Shown here: positions 6,406 through 33,410 of the stretch, piece after piece | Position numbering within the stretch: the stretch's first letter is position 1 | Layout: each line of letters opens with the position of its first letter | Origin: an uncultured Chloroflexales bacterium | GTDB lineage: Bacteria; Chloroflexota; Chloroflexia; Chloroflexales; Chloroflexaceae | Assembly: GCA_937918935.1 (NCBI GenBank) | Contig: CAKZSI010000072.1 | Span: forward strand, 1 to 64,000 | Reading direction: 5' to 3' | DNA length: 64,000 nt | Translations under genes and position numbers: made by a program | Notes under the pieces: generated by a model | Databases searched by the model: none | Told to the model about the DNA's origin: nothing | Seen by the model: the letters and a program-made list of their open reading frames with translations, nothing else

Positions 6406-7431
6406 TCACTCCGTCGGTAACGCTGATGTGCCAGTGCCGTTCAACTCCTCGCGCACCACATAGATCGAGCGGTTGCGCCCCTCGTAATAGACCCGCGTGA
6501 TCAACTCGCCCAGGAGACCCATCCCCAGGAACTGCACCCCCACCAGAACCAGCAACACCGCCAGCAGCGCCAGGGGCCGGTCGGCGATCGGCTGGCTGAG
6601 GATCAGGCGCACGTAGGCCAGATACACGAGCAGCGCCGTGCCGATCGCCCCGCTCAGCAGGCCAATGCCGCCAAAGACCTGCATGGGCCGGGTGGAGTAG
6701 GAGAGCAGGAAGCGCACAGTGATCAGGTCGAGCAGGACACGCGAGGTGCGCCCGATGCCGTACTTCGAGCGGCCGTACTTGCGCGCGGCGTGGTTGACCG
6801 GCGCCTCGGCAACGGCCACCCCCTGCCACGAGGCGATCGCCGGGATGAAGCGGTGCAACTCGCCGTACAGATCGATGTTCTTCACCACCTCGGCCCGGTA
6901 GACCTTCAGCGAGCAGCCGTAGTCGTGGAGGTGCACCCCGGTGGCCCAGGAGATCAGCCGGTTGGCGATGATCGATGGGAGCCGCCGGCTGAGAAAGGGG
7001 TCCTGGCGGCGGGCGCGCCAGCCGCTCACCACATCAAAGCCGCTCTCGGCTCTGGCCAGCAGCGCCGGGATGTCGCCCGGGTCGTTCTGGAGATCGGCGT
7101 CAATAGTAATCACCCACTCGCCGCAGGCGCGGTCGAAGCCGGCGGCGAATGCGGCCGTCTGGCCGAAGTTGCGCCGGAAGCGAACGACCCGCAGGCGCTT
7201 ATCGGCGGCGGCCAGATCGCGCAGCAGCGCAAAGCTCCGGTCGCGTGAGCCGTCATCAATCGCCAGGATCTCGTAGGGATGCCCGAGATGGTTGAGGACC
7301 TCGGTCAACCGGGTGTAGAGATGGGGAATGCTCTCCTCTTCGTTGTAGATCGGCACGACGACGGAGAGGTAGGGTTTCCGCGCCTCCGCAACGAGATCCT
7401 GCATCTCGACGGCCACTGCACAGGTGGTCAT
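6406..7431 (-). CDS. Glycosyltransferase family 2, polyprenyl-phosphate sugar synthase type
   Basis: A 341-residue protein with the GT-A signature LSVVVPIYNEEESIPHLY, the acidic IDADLQNDP motif for metal and donor binding, and RRQDPFLSRRLPS acceptor-loop residues. Two C-terminal membrane helices follow from about residue 235. This layout matches DPM1/GtrB/ArnC-type enzymes, which load a sugar onto polyprenyl phosphate at the inner membrane face. It is the first gene of the minus-strand operon, with a GGAGTGA ribosome site. A lipid-linked sugar made here would be a natural donor for a GT-C-type enzyme such as the DUF2079 protein downstream; that link is inference. Confidence 0.9.
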   Translation of the reverse strand: MTTCAVAVEMQDLVAEARKPYLSVVVPIYNEEESIPHLYTRLTEVLNHLGHPYEILAIDDGSRDRSFALLRDLAAADKRLRVVRFRRNFGQTAAFAAGFDRACGEWVITIDADLQNDPGDIPALLARAESGFDVVSGWRARRQDPFLSRRLPSIIANRLISWATGVHLHDYGCSLKVYRAEVVKNIDLYGELHRFIPAIASWQGVAVAEAPVNHAARKYGRSKYGIGRTSRVLLDLITVRFLLSYSTRPMQVFGGIGLLSGAIGTALLVYLAYVRLILSQPIADRPLALLAVLLVLVGVQFLGMGLLGELITRVYYEGRNRSIYVVREELNGTGTSALPTE

Positions 7432-7517
7432 AGCTCACTCCGGCATACGGGTCATCCGCTCCAGTTTCTCCAACCACAAACTCGTTACGCGCCATGAAAC
7501 GCCGGTTGGAGGAGGGT

Positions 7518-7536
7518 GGGGAAACCAGGTTTCCCC
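7518..7536. repeat. Palindrome GGGGAAACCAGGTTTCCCC
   Basis: Perfect 9-bp arms around one central base. It is a member of the dispersed intergenic palindrome family of this window (core GGAAACC-N-GGTTTCC). Confidence 0.85.
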
Positions 7537-7790
7537 GCCCCCCGGCCTGAGCTGTCGGCCCCGCCATCGCCACGACCCGGTACGGAAACCTGCTTTCCCC
7601 GCCCCCCGGCCTGAGGGGAGGGGCTGGGGGGCTGCACCCGCGATGCGCCGGCTGCGCCTCGCATGCGTACGTGGCGTGGTCATTGTAGCGCAGCGCCCTT
7701 ACCGGCGAGAAGCGCGGCGGCTGGGAAGATGGTCCCATTGGGAGAGGAACGTTAAGGTCTGGTTGAAGCCTGCTACACAGTTGGATGGGC

Positions 7791-7813
7791 GCGGGGAGGC
7801 TGCGCCTCCCCGC
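7791..7813. repeat. Hairpin repeat GCGGGGAGGC-TGC-GCCTCCCCGC
   Basis: Perfect 10-bp arms with a TGC loop, 37 bp beyond the stop of the minus-strand Uma2 gene. A near copy lies at 12306-12328 and a degenerate one near 19127-19152. It could act as a transcription terminator for the convergent side, but there is no U-tract. Confidence 0.65.
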
Positions 7814-7850
7814 ACTGTCGCTCCGTCCGCGGCAGGCACGCACCGTGGGC

Positions 7851-8468
7851 CTACCTGGCGTCAAAGACCTCATCCACGCTCACGCTGAACCCGTCAATGA
7901 ACTTTGAGGCGGCGCGATCGCCGCGGCGGAACACGCCGTGCTCAACGTAGGCCGCGCCATCAAGAACGAGTACGGTAATTGTCTCATTGATGGGGTTCAC
8001 GATCCAGTATTCGGGGATGCCCGCCTCGGCGTAATCCCGCGGCTTCTCTTCGAGATCGCGCTCCGGCCTGTCCGGGCTTACAATCTCCATGACCAGATCG
8101 GCGCCGAGCCAGTAGTCGTTCTGGTTCCGCGGATCATGCATATCCTTCAGAGCGAGAATGTCCGGCTCGCGGAACTTCCCTGGCCGCACCTGAAGCCGTA
8201 GCGGCGCGAAGAGGACCTTCCCTCCGCGGGGGCGCAGCAGCAGCAGCAACGCCTCGTACAAAAAGGCCAGGATGACCTGATGGTCACGGGTCGGCATCGG
8301 AAGCACCTCAATAACACCATCGGTAAACTCAATGAGATGGTTTGTCTGATCGCTGAGCTTGAGGTACTGCTCAACGCTCCACAGACCCTGGAGGGCCTGC
8401 AAATCCAGATCCAGCCCATCAGCCTCGCGGACCATGCGCAGGTCGTCAGACCGGGTGTGAGTGGCCAT
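7851..8468 (-). CDS. Uma2 family (DUF820) restriction-endonuclease-fold protein
   Basis: A 205-residue product with the Uma2 pattern: WSVEQYLKL near the start, LIEFTDGVIEVLPMP, then the PD-(D/E)XK-like core EPDILAL followed by DLVMEIVSPDRPERD and KPRDYAEAGIPEYWIVNP. The Asp of EPD, the Glu of MEIVSP and the Lys of KPRDY are in the expected catalytic spacing, so an active nuclease fold is plausible. The family is greatly expanded in Chloroflexota and cyanobacteria and its biological role is unsettled. AAGGTGA precedes the ATG. No partner gene is adjacent. Confidence 0.85.
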   Translation of the reverse strand: MATHTRSDDLRMVREADGLDLDLQALQGLWSVEQYLKLSDQTNHLIEFTDGVIEVLPMPTRDHQVILAFLYEALLLLLRPRGGKVLFAPLRLQVRPGKFREPDILALKDMHDPRNQNDYWLGADLVMEIVSPDRPERDLEEKPRDYAEAGIPEYWIVNPINETITVLVLDGAAYVEHGVFRRGDRAASKFIDGFSVSVDEVFDAR

Positions 8469-9144
8469 AGCGCTTCACCTTCGGTAAGCCAGTCATCCCG
8501 ATCAGAGTATACGCGAGCCGGCCAGAGATTGGCAAAACCTCCTGACCCGGTATGTGCACACTTCCCCCGTGGAGCGCGGGCATCTTCCCCGCCCACCCTG
8601 ACGAGGGCGGGGCGCCGGTGCTCCCGGGTTTGCGGAGGTATCTCGGGCCGAACAGGTTTGACCCGGGAACGCCTGAGATGAATAATGGGGAAAGCACGTT
8701 CTTTGCCACGCCTCTGCCCCCTTGCCCGGGAACTCGCTATGGAAGGAAGGGAAAAACACCCTCCCCGGCTCCGCCCGGCGACGCAGGGCCAATAGGTCCC
8801 GGCGGACGATGTGCGTTGTAACTCCGCAGAGTAAACTACAGACAGATAGATCAGGGCCGGCAGCCAGGACACCGCCGCGTACAATCCTGCCGACCCGTCC
8901 ATCCTCTTTCGCGACTGTCCCTGGTGGGTCAGTCGCTTTTTTGTTACACTCGTGTGCGGCGCAGCGGCACATCACGAAATGGAGGAAAACCGGGTTGCCC
9001 CATCCCCCTGCCTCTGCAGGGGCGAGCGCGCCCGCCCGGCCTGATGGAGAGACCGGGAAACCCGGTTGCCCCTTCCCCCTGCCAGAAGGGAGACGAGGGC
9101 GAGCCGCCCCGCCCATACCGCCCCTGGTGATACTGGAGACTTGT
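8469..9144. other. Long intergenic region with repeat pair, no gene
   Basis: I see no supported gene here. Two related units (8984-9011 and 9055-9083) share a degenerate palindrome ending GGTTGCCCC followed by TCCCCCTGCC. Open frames entering from the left of the AEC transporter run through these repeats and have no domain, so they are not taken as N-terminal extensions. Confidence 0.5.
9055..9072. repeat. Degenerate palindrome GGGAAACCCGGTTGCCCC
   Basis: Imperfect member of the dispersed palindrome family, 72 bp upstream of the AEC transporter start. A second diverged copy is at 8984-9001. Confidence 0.6.
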
Positions 9145-10080
9145 GTGGTACGTGTGCTCCTTGAAGTGTTGCTGCCGGTCGCGCTGGCAGCCACGGCGGG
9201 CATAGCCCTGCGTTGGCGCATGGATCTGGATCAGGCTACGCTGAACCGGGTGGTCATTTACGGGTTAAGCCCGGCGCTGATCTTCAGTTCGCTCGTCACT
9301 ACTGATCTGTCGGGCGCTGGCGCGCTGCGGATGCTGGCTCTGGCGCTGGGGGTGCTGGTAGTCATGGGCCTGATCAGTTGGGCGACCGGCAGGCTGCTGG
9401 GGTTGCGCGGCGGCAGCCTGAGCGCCCTGGTGCTGGTGAGCGCGTTTATGAACTCGGGCAACTACGGCCTGCCAGCGGCGCGCTTCGCCTTTGGTCAGGA
9501 GGGCCTGAGCCTGGCGCTGTTTTACTTCATTGTCCAGGCCATCACGGGGCAGACGGTCGGCGTGGCGGTGGGCGCGGCGGGCAACGCCCGCTCCGGGGCG
9601 GGGCTGCCCATGGAGGTGGCGCGACGGGTGCTGCGTATGCCCCAGGTCTATGCCACCGTGGCGGCCCTGCTGGTACGCGCGACAGGCGTTGACCCCGCGG
9701 CGTCCGGCGGGGCCATCCTGGGCCTGTTCCGGGGCGTTACGCTGCTCGGCGAGGCCACCCTGCCGATGATGCTGATTGTGCTTGGCACGCAGCTTGGCAG
9801 CGGGATGGTGCGCGAGGACCCCTGGCTGGTGGGCCTGGCCTGCGGGCTGCGGCTGGTGGTGTCGCCGCTGGTGGCCTATGGCCTGGGCCTGATGCTGGGG
9901 CTGCACGGCATGGGTCTGGCAGTAGGGGTTATGCTCTCGGGGATGCCCGCCGCGGTGCATACGACCATCACCGCGATCGAGTTTGAGGCCCGCCCGAGCC
10001 TGGTTGTCGCCGTGGTGGTCGCTTCGTCGGCGCTCAGCCTGGTGAGCCTGGCAGTGCTGCTGGCGCTCCTGCCGGGGTGA
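9145..10080 (+). CDS. AEC (auxin efflux carrier) family transporter
   Basis: A 311-residue, about ten-helix membrane protein. Family features are VLLPVALAATAGIALRW at the start, the LNRVVIYGLSPALIFSSL segment, the NSGNYGLPAARFAFG motif near residue 100, and MLIVLGTQLG in the second half. AEC members export or import small carboxylates or other organic anions; the substrate cannot be told. The GTG at 9145 has GGAG 6 bp upstream; an in-frame GTG at 9127 is the alternative, and the longer frame to 8722 crosses repeats. The gene lies 86 bp upstream of an amidohydrolase and may share its transcript. Confidence 0.85.
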   Translation: MVRVLLEVLLPVALAATAGIALRWRMDLDQATLNRVVIYGLSPALIFSSLVTTDLSGAGALRMLALALGVLVVMGLISWATGRLLGLRGGSLSALVLVSAFMNSGNYGLPAARFAFGQEGLSLALFYFIVQAITGQTVGVAVGAAGNARSGAGLPMEVARRVLRMPQVYATVAALLVRATGVDPAASGGAILGLFRGVTLLGEATLPMMLIVLGTQLGSGMVREDPWLVGLACGLRLVVSPLVAYGLGLMLGLHGMGLAVGVMLSGMPAAVHTTITAIEFEARPSLVVAVVVASSALSLVSLAVLLALLPG

Positions 10081-10166
10081 TGCACAGGCCCCCTTATCCT
10101 CGCGTGCCTGTCGCCCTGCGAAGGCGTGGGAGCTACGCCCGTCAACTGAAGGAACAAGGTGACGCT

Positions 10167-11771
10167 ATGCAAGCAACCCTGGTCATTCGTAACGCAAAGG
10201 TCTGTACGTTCGACCCGGCGCGCCCGTGGGCCGGGGCGCTGGCCGTGGCAGGTGAGCGCATCGTCTGGACCGGTGACGATGCCGAGGCGACCGCGTGGGC
10301 GGGGCCAGGGACGCGGACCATCGACGCGGGCAGGGGCCTGCTGCTCCCCGGGTTCTGCGACAGCCACTTCCACCTGCTGCTCGGCGCGCGCACGCTGGCC
10401 CAGGCGCGCCTGGAAGGGGCCACAAGCCTCGACGAACTCGCCTCCCGCTTGCGGGACTACGCCGCCGCTCACCCCGATCGCCCCTGGATCGTCGGGCGCG
10501 GCTGGACCTATCGCCTCTTCGCCAGTGGCGCGACCATCAACCGTCGCCTGCTTGATGCGGTTGTGCCCGATCGGCCGGTGCTGCTCAGCGCCTTCGATGG
10601 GCATACGGCATGGGCCAACACCGCTGCGCTGCGGCTGGCCGGAATCCTCGAAGGAGCGGACACCGGCACGTCCTTTGGCGCCGTGGTGATGGGTGATGAT
10701 GGCTGCGCCACCGGCGAACTGCGCGAAGCGCCGGCGATCAATCTGGTGCGCCGCCACGTTCCGCCGCTGAGCGAGGATGAACAACTGGACCTGCTACGCC
10801 AGGCGCTCGCCGATCTGGCCGCCGTGGGCTTGACCAGCGTCCACAATATGGACGGCGATGTCTGGCAACTGGGGATGTACCAGCGCCTGCTGGAACGGGG
10901 CGAGTTGTCGCTGCGGGTGCTCACGCCCCTCCTGCTCAAGCCCGGCGCGCCGCTCGAGGCAATTGACGCCTGGGCCGAACGCGCCCGCGGCCTTCCCGGT
11001 CCCATCCTGACCGCCGGGGCGGTCAAACTGCTGCTCGATGGCGTGGTGGAGACGAAGACGGCACTGCTGCTCACCCCCTACGCCGACGGCTCGGGCGATA
11101 CGGGGATGGCCAACTTCAGCCAGGAGGAGTTTGAACGCCTGGTCACGCACGCCGACGCACGGCGGCTGCAAGTCTGCGTGCATGCCATCGGCGACGGGGC
11201 GACGCGCCGCACACTCGACGCCTTCGCCGCGGCCCGGCGCGCCAATGGCCCTCGCGATGCGCGCCATCGTATCGAGCACGTCGAACTGATTGACCCCGCC
11301 GATGCGCCGCGCTTCGCCGAACCTGGGGTCATCGCCTCCATGCAGCCGCTCCACGCCAGTTTCGGGAACGACCCGCAGAACACCTGGCGCCGGCTGAGCG
11401 GGCCAGAGCGCTGGCCGTGGGGCTTTGCCTGGCGCACGCTCCGCGACGCGGGCGCGCGACTGGCCCTGGGGAGCGACTGGCCGGTGGCCGATCCCGACCC
11501 GCTCAAAGGGATCCACGCCTGCCTGACCCGGCGCCCCCTCGCTGCCGGCGCGCCCGATCAGCGTCTCTCCCTCCACGAGGCGCTGGAAGGCTACACCACG
11601 GGCGCGGCCTACGCCGCGCACCGCGAACACGAACTGGGACGGCTCGCACCGGGCTATCTCGCCGACTGTGTGCTGCTCGATCGCGACGTGTTCGCCCTGG
11701 CGCCGGAGGCGCTCGGCGAGGCCCGCGTTGACCTGACCGTCATGGGAGGCGCAGTGGTCTATGAACGGTAA
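10167..11771 (+). CDS. Metal-dependent amidohydrolase, YtcJ-like
   Basis: A 534-residue enzyme of the amidohydrolase superfamily. The small beta-sandwich begins TLVIRNAKVCTFDPARPWAG, followed by the metal motif LLLPGFCDSHFHLLLGAR (HxH with aromatic insertion, typical of the YtcJ/Amidohydro_3 branch). Later elements are CVHAIGDGATRRTLDAF, RIEHVELID, the terminal aspartate region LALGSDWPVADPDP, and the closing sandwich LAPGYLADCVLLDRDVF. These enzymes hydrolyse exocyclic amide or formamide bonds; the substrate is not predictable. AAGGAACAAGGTG lies upstream of the ATG, preferred over a start at 10077 that overlaps the AEC gene. Confidence 0.9.
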   Translation: MQATLVIRNAKVCTFDPARPWAGALAVAGERIVWTGDDAEATAWAGPGTRTIDAGRGLLLPGFCDSHFHLLLGARTLAQARLEGATSLDELASRLRDYAAAHPDRPWIVGRGWTYRLFASGATINRRLLDAVVPDRPVLLSAFDGHTAWANTAALRLAGILEGADTGTSFGAVVMGDDGCATGELREAPAINLVRRHVPPLSEDEQLDLLRQALADLAAVGLTSVHNMDGDVWQLGMYQRLLERGELSLRVLTPLLLKPGAPLEAIDAWAERARGLPGPILTAGAVKLLLDGVVETKTALLLTPYADGSGDTGMANFSQEEFERLVTHADARRLQVCVHAIGDGATRRTLDAFAAARRANGPRDARHRIEHVELIDPADAPRFAEPGVIASMQPLHASFGNDPQNTWRRLSGPERWPWGFAWRTLRDAGARLALGSDWPVADPDPLKGIHACLTRRPLAAGAPDQRLSLHEALEGYTTGAAYAAHREHELGRLAPGYLADCVLLDRDVFALAPEALGEARVDLTVMGGAVVYER

Positions 11772-24055: not shown

Positions 24056-24215
24056 ACTGCCTGCATAGAGACGGCCCGCCGTTCCCCCCGGACATCTCAG
24101 AAGTCCTGTTATACTGGAATCAGGGCTGCACCGCACCCCTGCCTGCGGAACGGCAGGGATGTGGCGCAGCCGCGTGGACGACCGAGAGCGAATTACGAGA
24201 AGTCCCGGAGGGAAC

Positions 24216-25730
24216 GTGTCAAAAAACATTCTGATCGTTGGGGCCGGACCGGGGGGGATGGCTACGGCGATGCGTCTGGCGTCCGCGGGCTACCAGGTGG
24301 CGATCTACGAGGCGGCCGACCGGGTTGGCGGGCGCATGCGCGGTTTTGAACTTGGCGCCTATGCCTTCGACACCGGGCCAACCATCCTGCAGGTGCCGCG
24401 CGTCTACGAAGAGCTTTTCGGCGCGTGCGGCCTCAACGTGTACGATTACATCAAGTTGATCCGTCTGGAGCCGAATACCCGTATCGCCTTCTGGGACGGC
24501 ACGCACCTCGACCTGACCTCGAATATCCCGGCCTTCAAGGAGCAACTGGCTCGCTTCGGGCCGGATCTGCCGGCGGCCTTTGAACGCTGGTACATCGAGC
24601 ATCTGCGCAAGGACAAGGTGGGCTACGGCCCCTACCTGGGCACGCCGGTGCGCCCGCCCCTGGGCTACCTGAAGCCCGAGGAGGTGGCGGCAGCCCTGCC
24701 CTTCCGGCCCTGGGAGAGCCTTTACGACCATTTCAAGCGCTTCTTCCCCGACGAGCGCCTGGTCTATGCCCTGGCCTATCAAGCCAAATACCTGGGCATG
24801 CACCCCACCGCCTGCTCCAGCGTATTCAGCCTGGTTACCTTCCTGGAGTTCCACTACGGCATCTGGCATCCCCAGGGCGGCTTCCGCGCCCTGGCCCGCG
24901 CCCTGGCCCGCGCCGCCGAGGATCTGGGCGTGGAAATCCACCTGCGGCGCCCGGTGCGCCAGGTGATCGTCGAGGACGGGCGCGCCCGCGGCCTGCTGAT
25001 GGCCGATGGGGAGCGAATCATGGGCGATGCGGTAGTGATCAACGCCGACTTCGGCCACGCCGTGCAGACGCTCCTGCCCGCCGACGCCCGCGGCCCCTAC
25101 ACTGACCGCTGGCTGAACCGCAAGGAGTTCTCCTGTTCGACGTTCATGCTCTACCTGGGCGTCAACCGGCGCTGGGAGCACCTGCCGCACCACCAGTTGT
25201 ACCTCTCCGAGCACATTCGCCGCACCGACCCGCTGTGGGCCAGAAGCGCCGTACTCGATGAAGAGGACCCCTCGTTTTACGTCTGTAATCCAACGATTGT
25301 TGACCCGGCGAACGCCCCGGAGGGGCATAGCACGCTCTTCGTGCTGGTGCCGGTTCCCAATCTGCGCTACCCGGTGGATTGGGCGGCGAAGGCCGGGCCG
25401 TACCGCGATCTCATTCTGCGGCAGATGGCCAGACTGGGCTTTGAGGAAGTGGAGCGCCATATTGTGGTCGAGCGCCACTACACCGCCGAGACCTGGCGCG
25501 ACGAGCACCACACCTACCTGGGCGCGGTGTTCAACCTCATCCATAGCTGGCAGCAACTCGGCCCGTTACGCCCGCACATTCGCCACCGGGGCGCCCGCAA
25601 CCTGTACTGGATCGGCGGCGCCGTGCACCCCGGCAGCGGGTTGATGACCATCCTGGAGGCAGCGAAGAGTGCCGTGCATTTCATCGGCGAAGATCTGCCT
25701 GTCGCGGCCTCGCTGGTGAGCAGCCGGTAG
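24216..25730 (+). CDS. CrtI-type phytoene/carotenoid desaturase
   Basis: A 504-residue FAD enzyme. The N-terminal dinucleotide motif is ILIVGAGPGGMATAMRLASAG with E31 of VAIYEA contacting ribose, followed by the desaturase signature DRVGGRM and FDTGPTILQVP. Near the end, the carotenoid-desaturase motif LYWIGGAVHPGSGLMTILEAAKS is clear. Members introduce double bonds into phytoene or its relatives at the membrane. The GTG at 24216 has CCGGAGGG upstream. The CrtO-like ketolase lies convergent, 68 bp away. Desaturation steps cannot be assigned from sequence; a CrtD-like or CrtN-like role is possible. Confidence 0.87.
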   Translation: MSKNILIVGAGPGGMATAMRLASAGYQVAIYEAADRVGGRMRGFELGAYAFDTGPTILQVPRVYEELFGACGLNVYDYIKLIRLEPNTRIAFWDGTHLDLTSNIPAFKEQLARFGPDLPAAFERWYIEHLRKDKVGYGPYLGTPVRPPLGYLKPEEVAAALPFRPWESLYDHFKRFFPDERLVYALAYQAKYLGMHPTACSSVFSLVTFLEFHYGIWHPQGGFRALARALARAAEDLGVEIHLRRPVRQVIVEDGRARGLLMADGERIMGDAVVINADFGHAVQTLLPADARGPYTDRWLNRKEFSCSTFMLYLGVNRRWEHLPHHQLYLSEHIRRTDPLWARSAVLDEEDPSFYVCNPTIVDPANAPEGHSTLFVLVPVPNLRYPVDWAAKAGPYRDLILRQMARLGFEEVERHIVVERHYTAETWRDEHHTYLGAVFNLIHSWQQLGPLRPHIRHRGARNLYWIGGAVHPGSGLMTILEAAKSAVHFIGEDLPVAASLVSSR

Positions 25731-25798: not shown

Positions 25799-27466
25799 CT
25801 ACTCCGCCAGCACCCTTCGCGCCCTCCCGGCGGCCCACAGCCCGGCCGCCAGGGCACCGGCTCCCACCGCCAGCGGCGCCCAACTGCGCCGTCGCGTGTC
25901 CCCGAGCACGACCCTCGCGGTGTTGTAGCCGCTGGCGCCGAAGACGCCGCCACCGGGGTGGGTGCTGGCCCCGGTGAGGTACAGCCCCTTGATCGGCGTG
26001 CGGTAACTCGCCAACTCCGGCAGTGGGCGGAAGAAGAACATCTGGTCGAAACTCATCTCCACATGCATCACGTTGCCCTTGAGCAGGCCGATGCGGCGTT
26101 CCAGGTCCAGCGGTGATTGGATGAAGCGATCGATGATCTTGCCGCGCATGTTGGGGGCGTAGCGGTAGAGCACCTCCAGAATGCTGTCGGCGACCTCCTC
26201 ACGCACGTCGTCCCAGTGCCGCCCGCCGCTGAGTTCGTAGGGAAAGTACTGCGCCCAGAGGAAGACGGTGTGCTTGCCGGGGGGAGCGACGATCGGATCG
26301 ATCGCCGAGAAGGTCATCGCAATCACCGCCGGGTCCTTCGAAGGCTCGCCCCGCAGGTAGTCTTCGTAGGCCCGGCGCACGTAATCCATGCTCGGGCTGA
26401 GGAGTTGGAGACCGTGGTGACTCTCGTGGGGTTTGCCGCCACTGGGGGCGCCGGGGTAGTCGGGGAGTTCTTCGGCGGCGCAGCGCACGGTCATGCCGAA
26501 GCCGTTGCCGACCCGCACCTTCTGCAGCCGCTCCACCAGGCGCGAGGGCAGGTGGGCGGGACCAACAAGCCGCAGCAGGGTGGTGAGCACATGGGCGTTC
26601 GACACCACCACCGGCGCGGAGTAACGCTGGCCATCCTCGGTTTCGATGCCCTGCACCCGACCCGACTGGATCAAAATGCGGCGCACCGGCGCGTCTACCG
26701 CCACGTTGCCCCCGAAGCTGATCAAGGCGCGGGCCATGGCCTGGGTGAGCATGCCGCTGCCGCCTCTGGGATGCGCCGCGCCACTGTAGTGCAGCATGGA
26801 GTGCCAGCCGAAGAAATCGCCGGCCCCGATCTCGTCCGGCGGCGGCCCGCTCTGGGCGGCCAGCCAGGTCATCGCGGCGCGCATCGCCTCGCTCTCGAAT
26901 GTCTCGCTGATCAACTGAGCATAGCTGGTAAACAGGCGCCGAGAGACCTCGGTTGCGTTACGCTCGTGGGCGGGTAAACGCGGGATTGCTGCAGCCACGC
27001 TGCTAAAAAGCCGCCCCACGGAGGGTGGATTGAGGAACACATCAAACACCGCCTCGTTCAGCGGCGTCCAGTAGGCCAGGAAGCGGCGATAGGCCTCGGC
27101 GTCGCGCGGGCTGACACGGGCGATGCTTTCGACCGTGCGCTCGGTGTCCTTATAAAAACTGATCGCGCCGCTGCCATCAGGCAGCGGATAGAAGGCGAAG
27201 GGGTCCATCGGAATATACTCGAGGCCGTGCCGCTCCAACTCCAGATCGCGCACGATGGGGGTGAGATGGACCATAATGTGGGCTGAGGAGCCTACGTCGA
27301 TTTTGTAGCCAGGAATGACCTCTTCGGTACAAACGGCGCCGCCGACGATAGGGCGGCGTTCGGCGACCAGCACCCGCAATCCGGCCTTCGCCAGGTAACC
27401 GGCGCAGGTAAGGCCGTTGTGCCCGCCACCGACCACGATCACATCGTAGTCCGTTTTGTGAGCCAT
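25799..27466 (-). CDS. CrtO-type carotene ketolase / FAD-dependent oxidoreductase
   Basis: A 555-residue protein with the dinucleotide motif DVIVVGGGHNGLTCAGYLAKAG and RPIVGGAVCTEE, typical of the CrtO/NAD(P)/FAD-dependent oxidoreductase branch. It ends with LYLTGASTHPGGGVFGASGYNTA. CrtO enzymes add a 4-keto group to beta- or gamma-carotene, consistent with keto-carotenoids reported in filamentous anoxygenic phototrophs. A C-terminal hydrophobic helix (about 530-548) after the catalytic domain may anchor it to the membrane. The family also contains RetSat-like proteins, so the exact reaction is uncertain. Confidence 0.85.
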   Translation of the reverse strand: MAHKTDYDVIVVGGGHNGLTCAGYLAKAGLRVLVAERRPIVGGAVCTEEVIPGYKIDVGSSAHIMVHLTPIVRDLELERHGLEYIPMDPFAFYPLPDGSGAISFYKDTERTVESIARVSPRDAEAYRRFLAYWTPLNEAVFDVFLNPPSVGRLFSSVAAAIPRLPAHERNATEVSRRLFTSYAQLISETFESEAMRAAMTWLAAQSGPPPDEIGAGDFFGWHSMLHYSGAAHPRGGSGMLTQAMARALISFGGNVAVDAPVRRILIQSGRVQGIETEDGQRYSAPVVVSNAHVLTTLLRLVGPAHLPSRLVERLQKVRVGNGFGMTVRCAAEELPDYPGAPSGGKPHESHHGLQLLSPSMDYVRRAYEDYLRGEPSKDPAVIAMTFSAIDPIVAPPGKHTVFLWAQYFPYELSGGRHWDDVREEVADSILEVLYRYAPNMRGKIIDRFIQSPLDLERRIGLLKGNVMHVEMSFDQMFFFRPLPELASYRTPIKGLYLTGASTHPGGGVFGASGYNTARVVLGDTRRRSWAPLAVGAGALAAGLWAAGRARRVLAE

Positions 27467-27916: not shown

Positions 27917-28927
27917 CTACCTCATCCCCAGTAGCCAGCGCAGCGCCGCATACGTCGCGCCATTGGGGAGCAGCGGCAGCAGGTGGGCGGCGAGCAGGGC
28001 CAGGCGGGGCAGGGGCGCCAGCCGTGGTGCTACCAGGGCGATGGGTATACTCAGCAACAGGACCAGGTGGGCCATGCCCGGGCCATCGCCGGCCTGCCCG
28101 CCACGGGCCAGGCGCGCGAGGGTAAGCGCCGTGCCCGCGGCGAGGGCCACGACCCCGCCGGCGCCTTTACCGGATCGCGTGGCGAGGTACCACAGCGGCA
28201 GGGCCAGCAGCGCCGCCTGCAATGTCACAATGTAGAGCAGCAGCGCCCGTGAGAGGCGCAGCCGCCCCTCTTCCATGCGCGCACCGAGAAACAGCGCCGT
28301 GGTCCGCGCGCCCCGCGCGGCGTCGTTTTCGAGATCGCGCAAGGCCCCGTGAACGCCGTTCACCATGAGGATCAGCAGCGTCTCGTAGACCATGAGCAGG
28401 CACGTCAACGTCGTTAACGCCCGACCCATCGTCAGCGCCCCGTAGCGCAGCAGCGCGGCCCATCCCAGGGCCTGTACCAGGTCGGTGAGGGGCGGGAAGG
28501 GGCATGCTTTGCCCCAGCGGTTATAGATCGCCATTGCGCCAAATGCCGCCGCCAGGCTGATTCTGGCATCACCACGCGCCGGGCTACAGGCGTCCGCGGC
28601 AACCAGCCGGGTGTGTAGGGCGAAGGCCAGTGGCACACAGGCCAGGGCCAGGCCCAGGGCAAGCTCCGGCTCAACCGCGCCCCGCACCAGCGGATAGTGC
28701 CGCCGGCGAGGCTGGGTGCGGTCGAGGTCAAGGTCGCAGATGTCGTTGTGCAGGTAGGCGAAGAGGTGAAAGGCGCTTGCCACCGCCAGCAAGCCGGTGG
28801 CGCGTCGCGGGGTCAGATGCGCGGTCACGCTGCCCGCGCCGAGCAGCGGGAGGGTCGCGGTCGCACCGAGGGCCGAGAAGCGGCTGAAGTGGTAGAGATC
28901 CCAGAGCAGCGCCTTGATGCTCATCAT
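27917..28927 (-). CDS. UbiA family prenyltransferase
   Basis: About 336 residues with eight or nine membrane helices. The first aspartate-rich motif NDICDLDLD fits NDxxDxxxD and the second is RDLENDAARGARTTA, so the Mg2+-diphosphate site is intact. UbiA enzymes attach isoprenoid chains to quinone, chlorin, heme or lipid acceptors; which applies here is unclear. The carotenoid genes nearby suggest an isoprenoid pigment or quinone step. The ATG at 28927 overlaps the stop of the giant kinase gene (TGATGA), so the two are translationally coupled. An ATG at 28924 is also possible. Confidence 0.85.
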   Translation of the reverse strand: MMSIKALLWDLYHFSRFSALGATATLPLLGAGSVTAHLTPRRATGLLAVASAFHLFAYLHNDICDLDLDRTQPRRRHYPLVRGAVEPELALGLALACVPLAFALHTRLVAADACSPARGDARISLAAAFGAMAIYNRWGKACPFPPLTDLVQALGWAALLRYGALTMGRALTTLTCLLMVYETLLILMVNGVHGALRDLENDAARGARTTALFLGARMEEGRLRLSRALLLYIVTLQAALLALPLWYLATRSGKGAGGVVALAAGTALTLARLARGGQAGDGPGMAHLVLLLSIPIALVAPRLAPLPRLALLAAHLLPLLPNGATYAALRWLLGMR

Positions 28928-31900
28928 GCATCCCGCGTCCACTCGCTCAGGCGAAAACCCGCCTCGCGCAGCATACGGAAGACGGTGGCAGTGTACACGG
29001 CGACGAACTCGTTTGGGGTGCGGGAGCGGGTCAGCATCTCCATGGCGGCCATAGCCATCTGGCGGCGCATTTTGGGGTAGTAGACGCAGGAATGGACCAC
29101 CTGGTTGTAGAGGCCCAGCCAGTAGATGTAGCGCCGCACCAGTTCGGTATCGGCGGCGGCGGCCACGCGGCGCTGCAAGGCATCGCTGAGGCCTCGCCGG
29201 GCCATGAACACATCCACCGCGTCACGGTGCTGCATGCGGATGGTCGCCAGGGTGGGCGTCAGAGCCGCCGGCAGGTCGTCGCGCATCGCCGCCACCACGT
29301 CGCCAAGGAGCCGCAACACCGGCTCGGGGTAGTAGAAGCCTACCGCGGCCAGGCCAGCAACCACCCGTTCGACCTGCCGCCGATCGTCGCGCATCAGGCC
29401 GTCCTGGAGCAGCAATTCAATCAGGGGCATGGTCTGGCCGAGTTTGCCGTAGGCCAGACCCAGGGGCAGGAGCAGGATGTCGAACTGCTGCAGCAGGCTC
29501 GGTGTCGTGCCGTAGATCAGGTCGGGGTTGGCGCCAAAAAGGCCCTCGGTCAACTCCTCGACCAGGGGCGTCCACTCGTGGGGCGTATGCGGCAACAGCA
29601 CGCTGAAGGAGAGCAACAGCCAGAGCCGGCCCGGCGGCGGCAGGCGCTCGAAAAGCGCCCGCACCACGGGGGCGGCGCTGGCGATGTCGGCGAAGGCGTG
29701 AATGGCGATCTGGACCGTGCCCACGAGGTTGAAGAGCACATTGTCTTCGCGCAGCAGGGTCTCCAGGTCGGCGATGTAGGCGCGCAATGGCTTCCCCGGG
29801 TCGAACAGCGGCGCGACGCGCATCAAGATGGCGCGCTCGGCGTGCGGCACCTCGAAGAAACGCTCTACCGGCACGATTTCCGCCAGCAGCATGGTGTCGA
29901 GAATGGGGCGCGAGAAGGCGCTGGCCACCGCCTGAAAGATCAGGTCCTCGATGGTTTTGCCGAATACGCCGGTGTTGAGAATGTCGAGATGGAGCCGCTG
30001 GCGGGCCAGTTCGTAGTAGAGTTCCACCGTCGTATCACGGACATCCGGGCGCTCGGGGTGGTTGATGTAGATGACCACCGAGAGTTCAAAGAAGAACTCC
30101 AGGATGTTCCGCAGGTCGCGCAGGGCCGACGGGCCAACCCGCGCCACCAGGTCGCGCAGAAGACCATAGGTGAAGTCGGGATCGGAGCGCCAGATGAGGT
30201 AGAGCACGTCGCGGGCGACCCGCCGCAGGGCCGGGGCGCCACGGGCGGCGGCCCAGAGGAACAGGTCGCGGGCGGGCGGGCCAATGTAGTAAGCCGCCTT
30301 GAGCGCGGTCCGGCGCGTTTCATCAGTGTCTTGCTGGCAGAGCGACTTGAGCAGCTCGGCGCCGGCCTGCGCATCCTCGGCGTACAACTCAACGAGGGTC
30401 TGGGCGGCAAGTTCGCGCAGCTCGATGTCGGGCGCGCGGGCCAGGGTGGCGAAGGCGGCTGGCTGCCGGGCGACCAGCAGGGCGATGCGGGCCACGTCGA
30501 AGGCCAGGGGAAACTCCCGCGCACGGGCCATCAGGCCCGTGATGGCCCCGACAAGCCCCTCGCCACCAGCCGCGCCCCCCAGGAGGCGCCGGGCAAGCAC
30601 GTAGGCGCCGAGTTCGTTGTAGGCGAAGCTCACCGTTTCACCGGCGAAGGGGTGGCCTCGCTGCTCTGCAAGCACGCCGTTGTCGAGCAGGCGGCAGTAG
30701 GCGGTATCGGGGTCCTCGCGCAGCAACTCCTCGCGCAGGTGCTCGTTGCGGGCCAGATCGCGAACAGGTATGCTGATTGCCCCCCGGCGGAGCATCTCGC
30801 CGGCCAGTTCATCAATGAACAGATGCTCGCGGCGCTGACGCACCCGTTCCTCGTAGTAGCGGCGAAAAAGGCCCAGTCCTGGCCCACGCGCCGCCAGTTC
30901 GACCGGGCCATCGCGGCAACTCTCGGCAATCAAACGAAGCATGAGCGGCTTGCGCAGGCGCTCGCGCACACCCGCAGGCAGGCGTTCCAGGGGCGTCTGG
31001 AGGCGGTAGAAGCCGGCGTAGCGCTGGTAGGCCAGGGCCAGTTCGTCGGGGGTGAAGGGTTCCAGCGACAGCCACGGCTCGCCGTCGGGGCCGTAGTAGT
31101 ATGCGCTCCAGAACAGATTGGCCGCGCCGGCCCGCTCCAACTGGCCCCAGGCCACGCTGTTGCAACTGATCACCACACGTAACGCCGGACTGGCCACGCG
31201 GCCAACCAGGGCATCGAGTTGCTTGAGCAGGCTCTCGGGGCCGGCATGGACGCCGCTGCGATACTCATTCAGGCCGTCGAAGATCAGCACCAGGCGACGC
31301 CCGGCCTCGGCTGCCAGACGCCCGATCTGCCCCAGGTCGTGCGCCAGCGCCTCGGGCGCCTCGCGCCCCAGATCACGGCTGATCTCCCGATCAATCTCCG
31401 CGCCGAGCGAGCCGCCGCAACGGTAGAAGAGCACCGCGTCGCCCTCTTCCTGCAGATACTCGGCCCACCGCGCCAGCAGACAGGTTTTTCCCGTACCCGA
31501 GTCGCCGAGCAACAGCAGCGCCCCGCTCGCGCTTGCCAGAAAGGCCCGCAGATGCGCTTCGGCCCCGACGCGCGTCACGTACAGGTGCGGCGCGTAGGGT
31601 CCGGGACGATGGGGTGTGCCGGCCAGTTCGCGGAGTACCTGGCTGGCCTGGGTTCGGGCGGCGGCACGCACGTGGTCCCAGCCGACACTGATGGGCCGTG
31701 CCGGGGCAGACACACCGGGGCGCGGCACGAGGTGCGTCGGCGCGTCCACGACCGGTAGAGAGTCGACAACAGCGCTGGCGGCGGCCCGCAGCGCCTGGCG
31801 CAACGCGGCAGCGCTGGCCGGGCGCTCCTCACGCCGTAGCGCCAGGGCCTGTCCCAGCACCTCACTGACTTCGAGCGGCGCCTGGCGGTTCACCAGATGG

Positions 31901-32586
31901 ACCGGCGGCAGCGGGTCGGCCCGGCCCGCAAGCAGCGCCTCGGCCCGCGCCGGCGCGCTGACCGGAACACGATCGGTGAGCAAATGGTAGAGGGTCGCGG
32001 CGAGGGCGTAGAGGTCGGAACGGGCATCGGTGCCGCTGCCCTGGATCTGCTCCAGCGGCGCATAGTGCAAGGTGTAGCCGAAGAGACTCTGCGACGTGCC
32101 GAGACCGATACTCCTGGCGAGGCCAAAGTCGAGCAGGACCACCAGGCCCTCAGCCGTGAGCTTGAGATTCTGCGGCTTAATGTCGCGGTGCAACACCGGC
32201 GGCTCGCGGGTGTGCAGATACTCCAGCGTGGCGAGCACCTGATCGGCCCAGGAGAGCGCCTGGCCCACCGGGAACGGGCCGCCGTGGCGGGCCAGCAGCG
32301 CGGCCAGATCCGCCCCGGGAAAAAACTCCATCACCAGGTAACGCCCGGCGCCATCGCGGAAGTAGTCGATCACCTTGGGCAACGCGGGGTGGCGCAAGGC
32401 GGCGAGGAGCCGGGCCTCGCGCTCGAAGGCCTGGGCGTTCTCGGGGGCATCGCCGAGCATCTGCTTCAGGGCGACCGTATTGCGCAACCGCCGGTCCACC
32501 GCCTCGTAGACCGCGCCCATTCCCCCGCGGCCGATCAGCCGCACGATCTGGTAACGCTGGAAGATGAGGGAACCGGGATGGAGCAT
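28924..32586 (-). CDS. Ser/Thr protein kinase fused to a NACHT/STAND-like NTPase and helical repeats
   Basis: A 1220-residue protein. A PknB-like kinase (11-270) has the glycine loop GRGGMGAVYE, K41, HRDIKPQN (133-140) and DFG (153-155). After a linker, a P-loop NTPase follows: Walker A GDSGTGKT (361-368) and Walker B LVLIFDGLNEY (432-442), the latter typical of NACHT/STAND ATPases. The C-terminal 550 residues are alpha-helical and HEAT-like, probably a sensor scaffold. No membrane helix is obvious, so it is likely cytoplasmic. No Shine-Dalgarno is visible at the ATG. An FHA-winged-helix gene is divergent 180 bp away; UbiA overlaps at the 3' end. Confidence 0.85.
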   Translation of the reverse strand: MLHPGSLIFQRYQIVRLIGRGGMGAVYEAVDRRLRNTVALKQMLGDAPENAQAFEREARLLAALRHPALPKVIDYFRDGAGRYLVMEFFPGADLAALLARHGGPFPVGQALSWADQVLATLEYLHTREPPVLHRDIKPQNLKLTAEGLVVLLDFGLARSIGLGTSQSLFGYTLHYAPLEQIQGSGTDARSDLYALAATLYHLLTDRVPVSAPARAEALLAGRADPLPPVHLVNRQAPLEVSEVLGQALALRREERPASAAALRQALRAAASAVVDSLPVVDAPTHLVPRPGVSAPARPISVGWDHVRAAARTQASQVLRELAGTPHRPGPYAPHLYVTRVGAEAHLRAFLASASGALLLLGDSGTGKTCLLARWAEYLQEEGDAVLFYRCGGSLGAEIDREISRDLGREAPEALAHDLGQIGRLAAEAGRRLVLIFDGLNEYRSGVHAGPESLLKQLDALVGRVASPALRVVISCNSVAWGQLERAGAANLFWSAYYYGPDGEPWLSLEPFTPDELALAYQRYAGFYRLQTPLERLPAGVRERLRKPLMLRLIAESCRDGPVELAARGPGLGLFRRYYEERVRQRREHLFIDELAGEMLRRGAISIPVRDLARNEHLREELLREDPDTAYCRLLDNGVLAEQRGHPFAGETVSFAYNELGAYVLARRLLGGAAGGEGLVGAITGLMARAREFPLAFDVARIALLVARQPAAFATLARAPDIELRELAAQTLVELYAEDAQAGAELLKSLCQQDTDETRRTALKAAYYIGPPARDLFLWAAARGAPALRRVARDVLYLIWRSDPDFTYGLLRDLVARVGPSALRDLRNILEFFFELSVVIYINHPERPDVRDTTVELYYELARQRLHLDILNTGVFGKTIEDLIFQAVASAFSRPILDTMLLAEIVPVERFFEVPHAERAILMRVAPLFDPGKPLRAYIADLETLLREDNVLFNLVGTVQIAIHAFADIASAAPVVRALFERLPPPGRLWLLLSFSVLLPHTPHEWTPLVEELTEGLFGANPDLIYGTTPSLLQQFDILLLPLGLAYGKLGQTMPLIELLLQDGLMRDDRRQVERVVAGLAAVGFYYPEPVLRLLGDVVAAMRDDLPAALTPTLATIRMQHRDAVDVFMARRGLSDALQRRVAAAADTELVRRYIYWLGLYNQVVHSCVYYPKMRRQMAMAAMEMLTRSRTPNEFVAVYTATVFRMLREAGFRLSEWTRDA

Positions 32587-32660
32587 GGATATGACGTGAG
32601 ACTACCACTCCGGCGGAGCGCGTGTGATGGGTCGGCCCTCTCCCCACCCTCCCCCTGGCC

Positions 32661-32693
32661 GCCTCCCTCTCCACCCTCAGTGGAGAGGGAGGC
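32661..32693. repeat. Hairpin in kinase-FHA divergent intergenic region
   Basis: Perfect 13-bp arms GCCTCCCTCTCCA / TGGAGAGGGAGGC with a 7-nt loop. A related hairpin (CCCTCTCC...GGAGAGGG) is at 55129-55165. It lies between divergent promoters, so it is not a terminator for either; it is probably a mobile repeat or a DNA-level site. Confidence 0.65.
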
Positions 32694-32753
32694 CGAAGAA
32701 GGTGAGGAACGACACTGCGGCCCATTGTAGCACAGCAGTTTGCGCGCCTGCGG

Positions 32754-32759
32754 TACAAT
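32754..32759 (+). promoter_or_regulatory. Possible -10 box TACAAT, near-leaderless start
   Basis: TACAAT ends 6 bp before the ATG of the FHA gene, so transcription would begin at or near the start codon. No convincing -35 hexamer is placed at 16-18 bp. Confidence 0.35.
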
Positions 32760-32765
32760 GAGGGT

Positions 32766-33410
32766 ATGAGCGAGTCGAATCATCCAGCCGTCGCGCGCCT
32801 GGTGGCCCTGGCCGACGATGTGCGGCCAGTCGAGTTCCTCCTGAGCGGCGAAGAGCACACCCTGGGCCGCGCGCCCGGCTGCGACATAGTCATTCCCCGG
32901 CAGACGATCTCCCGGCTGCATGCGCGCATCACTCGCGAGGGGCCGCGCTACGTGCTGCGCGACGCGGGCAGCGCCAACGGCACATACGTCAACGGTCTAC
33001 CTGTAATCGGCCCCCATCTGCTAAACGACCAGGACACAATCGGGCTGGGCGCCACCGGCGGCCTGCTGCGCTTCCTCGACCCCGACCCGACCGTAGTCGC
33101 CGGCACGCGCCTGCGCTTCGATGAACGAGCGCAGGTCTTCCTGCTCAACGGCCAGGCGCTCGATCTGCCACCCGGGCAGTTCAGGTTGCTGCTGCACCTG
33201 CACCGCAACCTGGGGGCGCTGTGCAGCCGCGAGTCTTGCGCCGAGGCTATCTGGGGGCGCGACTACGACCCGGGCCTCGATGCTGAGGCTCTCGACCGCG
33301 CCGTGAGCAACCTGCGCGCCGCCCTGCGCCGCGCCGATCCTTCCGCCGACCTGATTCAGACTCGCCGCGGCCTGGGCTATGTGCTGCTGGCACAGTCACC
33401 AGGGACGTGA
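32766..33410 (+). CDS. FHA domain fused to OmpR-type winged-helix DNA-binding domain
   Basis: A 214-residue protein. The N-terminal FHA domain (about 25-100) keeps the phosphothreonine-binding residues G34-R35, S49-R50-x-H52 and N71-G72. The C-terminal half (about 120-210: LDLPPGQFRLLLHLHRNLG, CAEAIWG, DRAVSNLRAALRRADPS, TRRGLGYVLLA) is a Trans_reg_C winged helix. It should bind a phosphothreonine protein through FHA and DNA through the winged helix. Mycobacterial EmbR joins the same domain types in the opposite order. Divergent neighbour of the kinase-NTPase, the obvious candidate partner. Confidence 0.9.
   Translation: MSESNHPAVARLVALADDVRPVEFLLSGEEHTLGRAPGCDIVIPRQTISRLHARITREGPRYVLRDAGSANGTYVNGLPVIGPHLLNDQDTIGLGATGGLLRFLDPDPTVVAGTRLRFDERAQVFLLNGQALDLPPGQFRLLLHLHRNLGALCSRESCAEAIWGRDYDPGLDAEALDRAVSNLRAALRRADPSADLIQTRRGLGYVLLAQSPGT

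Follow-up and report, generated by a model that had tools for sequence, protein, structure and literature searches.

PknK of Mycobacterium tuberculosis joins a Hanks-type kinase, a STAND module and a C-terminal solenoid in one protein. Two reports describe phosphorylation of transcription regulators by PknK (PMC9045387, PMC4381067), and the first names VirS as a regulator phosphorylated by this STAND kinase (PMC9045387). In the same organism, PknH acts on EmbR, an FHA regulator, in a manner that requires the FHA domain (PMC4601284). Streptomyces AfsR combines an OmpR-type winged helix with a nucleotide-binding oligomerisation domain (NOD) switch and repeats, and it is phosphorylated by AfsK (PMC10936776). 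Here we describe a divergent gene pair in a 64,000-nucleotide stretch of DNA from an uncultured Chloroflexales bacterium (contig CAKZSI010000072.1, positions 1 to 64,000), referred to below as the window. One gene encodes a Ser/Thr kinase-NACHT-solenoid fusion and the other an FHA-winged-helix regulator (Table 1). From sequence and analogy, we assign a probability of roughly 0.58 to the pair being a one-step phosphosignalling circuit in which a cytoplasmic STAND kinase would act on the FHA regulator, and the regulator on gene expression. The evidence consists of an intact kinase, a NACHT domain, phosphothreonine-pocket motifs, conserved pairing and co-occurrence. The kinds of component are known and the combination is new; the pair is not reported in the open-licence literature searched.

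The window kinase resembles PknK in domain layout, a likeness drawn by description rather than by sequence. Unlike PknK, its switch is NACHT-type with a HEAT/ARM-like solenoid, and its partner is an FHA-OmpR-type protein whereas VirS is AraC-type. The pair shares with PknH-EmbR the association of a kinase with an FHA regulator bearing an OmpR-type DNA-binding domain. However, PknH is a receptor kinase and the window kinase carries a STAND module, and EmbR is arranged winged helix-BTAD-FHA whereas the window regulator is arranged FHA-winged helix and lacks a BTAD. In contrast to AfsK-AfsR, the switch is on the kinase and not on the regulator, and the window regulator is predicted to read phosphothreonine. 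By analogy, the kinase would work on its partner like PknK on VirS and PknH on EmbR.

Pfam places the kinase domain at residues 12-216 (E = 1.5e-38) and the NACHT domain, which is the best Pfam match for the NTPase, at residues 357-488 (E = 3.8e-9; 37 bits against a cut-off of 26.7). The catalytic residues K41, E57, H133-R134-D135, N140 and D153-F154-G155 do not vary in the 15 orthologues on which motif invariance was judged. All 15 also keep the GKT of the Walker A motif (G-[DE]-[SA]-G-x-GKT) and the D-[GA]-x-N-E of the Walker B motif (F-D-[GA]-x-N-E-Y-R), which is NACHT-type, the Asp being followed by a small residue. Two usual NACHT features follow downstream of the P-loop, a P-L-x-L-R stretch and F-x-Y-x-E-x-G-A-Y/F-V-L-A-R, the latter read as the probable end of the NACHT winged helix. 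VIA-align matches the NTPase part to those of Avs3, Avs5 and Dark. The C-terminal half is entirely helical in the AlphaFold2 model (mean predicted local distance difference test score of 60.8), and Foldseek matches the solenoid of this low-confidence model to HEAT/ARM proteins at low template-modelling scores. An NTPase-solenoid profile returned nothing at E 0.01 from the sequences of solved structures. The 1220-aa frame is kept at 66-91% identity across other genomes and genera, which makes the open reading frame (ORF) more than chance, and codon-position GC resembles that of neighbouring genes. Opposite the kinase gene, an ORF of 696 aa (29092-31182, plus strand) was rejected as a gene. It is interrupted by 9-15 stops in several orthologues, and its openness seems to be a by-product of GC-rich codon usage.

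The pocket of the regulator's FHA domain (Gly34-Arg35, Ser49-x-x-His52, Asn71-Gly72-Thr73 and Asn76) is invariant in the 24 relatives on which it was judged. FHA domains bind phosphothreonine through the motifs GR, SxxH and NG (PMC1262709). The FHA domain profile resembles the FHA structures of GarA, OdhI and EmbR, with E = 3.1e-12 for EmbR (2fez/2ff4). Pfam finds an N-terminal FHA domain, a C-terminal Trans_reg_C domain and no BTAD. The regulator is not an EmbR/SARP member because it lacks the BTAD and has the opposite domain order. Thr109, between the two domains, is invariant in the 24 relatives and is also present in distant FHA-winged-helix proteins. It was considered as a self-docking site and set aside, since the +3 residue is variable and not of the usual FHA type; Thr109 stays a candidate.

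The survey for the kinase covered 41 family genomes and, class-wide, 158 genomes (labels of the G000 type denote family genomes, g1 type genera and L type individual fetched loci). A full-length kinase with NTPase and solenoid is present in 21 of the 41 family genomes, and the same 21 are the sole carriers among the 158. Close full-length relatives occur in named records of Oscillochloris, Chloroploca and Viridilinea-type Chloroflexales, and the window's genome belongs among these green filamentous bacteria; genus g4, taken to be Chloroflexus, is without the kinase. An FHA orthologue (>60% identity) accompanies the kinase in 20 of the 21 carriers, split over two frames in G021, and is found in 0 of the 20 non-carriers, where the best match is 53% identical. 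The remaining carrier, G002 (86% complete), has merely a 58%-identity FHA copy. The two genes diverge across 179 bp in the window. They are divergent neighbours in 10 of the 18 genomes in which linkage could be judged (G000, G001, G003, G017, G021, G024, G025, G031, G033 and G035) and unlinked in the other 8 (G014, G015, G016, G032, G034, G036, G037 and G040); contig edges kept G027 and G039 out of this count, and G002 was not counted. The divergent layout is shared by g1, g2, g6, g10, g15 and part of g16, so it is probably ancestral and was broken later. An earlier note on this DNA had called the same two ORFs and their domains (a Ser/Thr kinase with intact catalytic residues, a NACHT-like Walker B, a helical C-terminus, FHA and an OmpR winged helix). 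Pfam, motifs and AlphaFold2 bear these calls out at the positions in Table 1. Its question of whether the divergent pair is conserved is answered in the affirmative by the layout and co-occurrence above, and its proposal of signalling from kinase to FHA regulator holds as the best inference from sequence and analogy.

Co-occurrence and layout bear on whether the two genes are incidental neighbours by descent, a kinase with many substrates beside an FHA-winged-helix protein that answers other kinases. The retention of both genes in the eight genomes where they are unlinked fits this explanation, as does the kinase-rich character of the window's own genome, with at least 16 kinase matches and 32 candidates. 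On the other hand, near-perfect co-occurrence speaks against it, and a rough estimate from ~32 kinases in 4.6 Mb gives any one gene a chance of ~3% of having a kinase within 2 kb. Neighbourhoods of a kinase and an FHA-winged-helix gene also repeat with independent make-up. Taken together, we consider incidental proximity unlikely, though it is the strongest of the competing explanations.

These repeated neighbourhoods are of two kinds. FHA-winged-helix genes lie beside different kinases on the same strand at L122, L128, L130, L131 and L146. They are divergent from a PknB-like kinase, which has a membrane segment and a low-complexity tail, at L149 and L150 (g4 genomes G006 and G007) and at L148 (G005). 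For many other FHA-winged-helix paralogues, L114-L121 among them, the fetched stretch contains no kinase. The association is recurrent and is not a rule. The occurrence of FHA-winged-helix genes beside unrelated kinases supports a transcriptional output, and the pairs of this sort in Chloroflexus-type genomes hint that one-step circuits from phosphorylation to transcription form a broader class in this phylum, one that has been little studied. Two observations describe individual loci. In the window's own genome (contig C15), L131:5093-7606 holds another FHA-winged-helix gene (51% identity) with two kinase domains behind it on the same strand. The Chloroflexus-type loci L149:3095-5586 and L150:3064-5623 have the divergent layout of the window pair with different proteins.

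A NACHT-solenoid profile searched against 400 genomes of the phylum gave three distant matches, L199, L200 and L201. The 1179-aa protein at L199:7993-11529 has a NACHT-solenoid homologous to the C-terminal 890 residues of the window kinase (hhalign probability 100%, E = 4.1e-46, 779 columns) and carries a BTAD domain (E = 5.9e-23); its N-terminus is read as a probable SARP-type winged helix. L199 thus has an AfsR-like domain order with a switch homologous to that of the window. L201 has an XRE-type helix-turn-helix at the N-terminus of a NACHT protein with HEAT repeats. Two of the three distant matches therefore join the NACHT module to DNA-binding domains, which is the best argument for a transcriptional output here, through the kinase and the FHA reader. 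The SARP-fused protein makes cis (direct) and trans (kinase-relayed) versions of one switch comparable within the phylum.

Four points weigh against a signalling circuit. First, a sensor-1 arginine after an S/T-C/S strand is typical, not strictly defining, of STANDs and contacts the nucleotide. The position is Asn or Ser in 15 of 15 kinase-fused orthologues, and the typical Arg is seen (as CR or SR) in the distant homologues L199, L200 and L201. The switch may therefore be atypical, cycling unusually or without hydrolysis, or with an altered reset. Passing the Pfam cut-off means that NACHT/STAND membership by homology stands despite this change, and the protein is classed among the Hanks kinases, with a STAND module of the NACHT family. 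Second, joint presence is the sole tie between the kinase and FHA genes in the eight unlinked genomes. Third, no conserved regulator-binding site was recognised between the genes, where promoter-like elements alone recur. Fourth, the carriers cluster together on an rpoB tree that is rough (three rows are misplaced, an antisense ORF having been taken) and serves a rough clade statement only. They look like about one clade with roughly one shared origin, so co-occurrence reflects mainly one inheritance and not 20 independent observations. G026 falls among the carriers, and its kinase, FHA and UbiA genes were all not found; at 84% completeness, gene loss and missing contigs are not distinguishable.

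In the proposed circuit, for which we infer the cue, oligomerisation, trans-phosphorylation, docking and target genes, the protein would be soluble and its helical solenoid would hold the NACHT switch closed until an intracellular cue is met. The opened switch, with ATP binding, would gather several kinase copies, and the clustered kinase domains would phosphorylate one another on the activation segment. The resulting phosphothreonine, or one on a partner, would then be bound by the FHA domain of the regulator; the docked regulator, phosphorylated or retained, would in turn bind DNA differently by way of its OmpR-type winged helix. A more specific version, which we hold tentatively and as the less likely case, is an NLR-like kinase platform in which ligand-driven NACHT-solenoid oligomers cluster the fused Hanks kinases, which act directly on the FHA-winged-helix factor, and the lost sensor-1 Arg slows reset. 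Such a platform, if real, would add a third layout to those of AfsR, with the switch on the regulator, and EmbR, with the sensor on a receptor kinase. The pair offers a compact two-gene test of STAND control over kinases and of FHA relay of phosphosignals into transcription.

The predicted promoters of the two genes lie back-to-back in the window. Only 24 nt separate their -10 hexamers, and interference between polymerases bound there is therefore expected. The kinase element TGCTACAAT recurs 5' of the kinase in 18 genomes, including those with the FHA gene elsewhere. It was not found within 170 bp upstream of the kinase in G027, and 75 bp were covered in G039. The FHA element TACAAT has similar spacing (~6 nt from the ATG) in most of g1, g2, g5 and g15, which suggests a leaderless mRNA predicted by motif. 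Immediately downstream of the kinase, a UbiA-family prenyltransferase gene overlaps the kinase gene end; it adjoins the kinase in g1, g6, g10, g15 and g16 and is a probable operon partner. This arrangement would suit local autoregulation, in which the main target of the FHA-winged-helix protein is the divergent promoter common to both genes, and with it the kinase-UbiA operon, phosphorylation provides feedback, and the function perhaps concerns membrane or prenyl lipids. The back-to-back promoters and the recurrence of UbiA behind the kinase in several genera speak for it. However, genomes with the FHA gene at another place conserve the kinase promoter element just as well, an operator motif common to the genomes was not seen, and UbiA is not beside the kinase in g5 or g18. 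Local autoregulation is improbable on these grounds. A 52-nt patch at 32641-32692 was considered as a regulatory site of the pair and excluded. It matches many places in the genome on both strands at ~77-89% identity, as a dispersed repeat, and makes the region upstream of the kinase longer here and, apparently, in G025.

The kinase-NACHT-solenoid protein also resembles the Avs and NLR-type NACHT defence proteins, which have a NACHT switch with a C-terminal solenoid and match its NTPase part structurally. An anti-phage protein of this type would sense a phage protein with the solenoid and use the kinase as a toxic effector, as in Avs or kinase-based abortive infection. This architecture, the alignment with Avs3 and Avs5, weak NCBIfam matches to EruA and Avs2 (17.6 and 13.2 bits; cut-off 1000), and PADLOC PD-T4-6 models that match the kinase domain are all consistent with such a role. 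However, the PADLOC matches listed span the generic kinase domain and linker alone, and among the matches listed no defence model extended beyond the kinase or P-loop. Unlike Avs, the window protein has a kinase N-terminus, a paired regulator, vertical inheritance in one clade and no defence neighbourhood. The orthologues share 66-91% identity, the C-terminus is conserved and not hypervariable, a partner transcription regulator is atypical of such effectors, and the surroundings are metabolic (carotenoid/FAD oxidoreductase, UbiA, S41 protease and ABC-transporter genes). The earlier note had suggested a possible part in stress or phage defence and proposed a check of proximity to defence islands. 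Phage defence is not supported: the locus behaves as a vertically inherited chromosomal set in one family with metabolic neighbours, and for ten further proteins of the window no match to a defence system was convincing. We regard an anti-phage function as a long shot, and the phosphosignalling circuit is the more likely of the two for this pair. At L200, a TIR-domain gene (10388-11179) lies beside the distantly related NACHT protein (6526-10311) as a possible defence or conflict pair, and this neighbour hints at a use of the broader NACHT pool in conflict systems as well.

Table 1. Features of the kinase-regulator locus in window coordinates.
Feature	Coordinates	Strand	Basis and remarks
Ser/Thr kinase-NACHT-solenoid fusion (STAND kinase), 1220 aa, ATG start	28924..32586	-	ORF; Pfam Pkinase and NACHT; full-length orthologues
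Hanks kinase domain, residues ~12-270; RD kinase, VALK/HRD/DFG intact	31777..32553	-	Pfam; alignment motifs
NACHT-type nucleotide-binding oligomerisation region and winged-helix-like part, residues ~331-666	30589..31596	-	Pfam NACHT; motifs; VIA-align
All-helical solenoid, residues ~667-1220, presumed sensor	28927..30588	-	AlphaFold2 secondary structure; Foldseek
FHA-OmpR-type winged-helix regulator, 214 aa, ATG start	32766..33410	+	ORF; Pfam; profile comparison
FHA domain, residues 32-95	32859..33050	+	Pfam, E 2.9e-20
Thr109 in a D-P-x-x-T motif that separates the FHA and winged-helix domains; candidate phosphosite, or else a structural residue	33090..33092	+	Alignments
OmpR/PhoB-type winged helix, Trans_reg_C residues 129-207	33150..33386	+	Pfam, E 7.7e-15
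Predicted extended -10 element of kinase gene, TGCTACAAT	32724..32732	-	Recurring motif
Predicted -10 element of FHA gene, TACAAT, 6 nt before ATG	32754..32759	+	Motif
UbiA-family prenyltransferase	27917..28942	-	Pfam UbiA, E 5.9e-16; true start maybe a few codons further in

Two FAD-dependent oxidoreductases of carotenoid type lie near the pair, at 25802-27466 on the minus strand and 24159-25730 on the plus strand. The product of the former is closest to CrtO-type ketolases, at a score below the cut-off.

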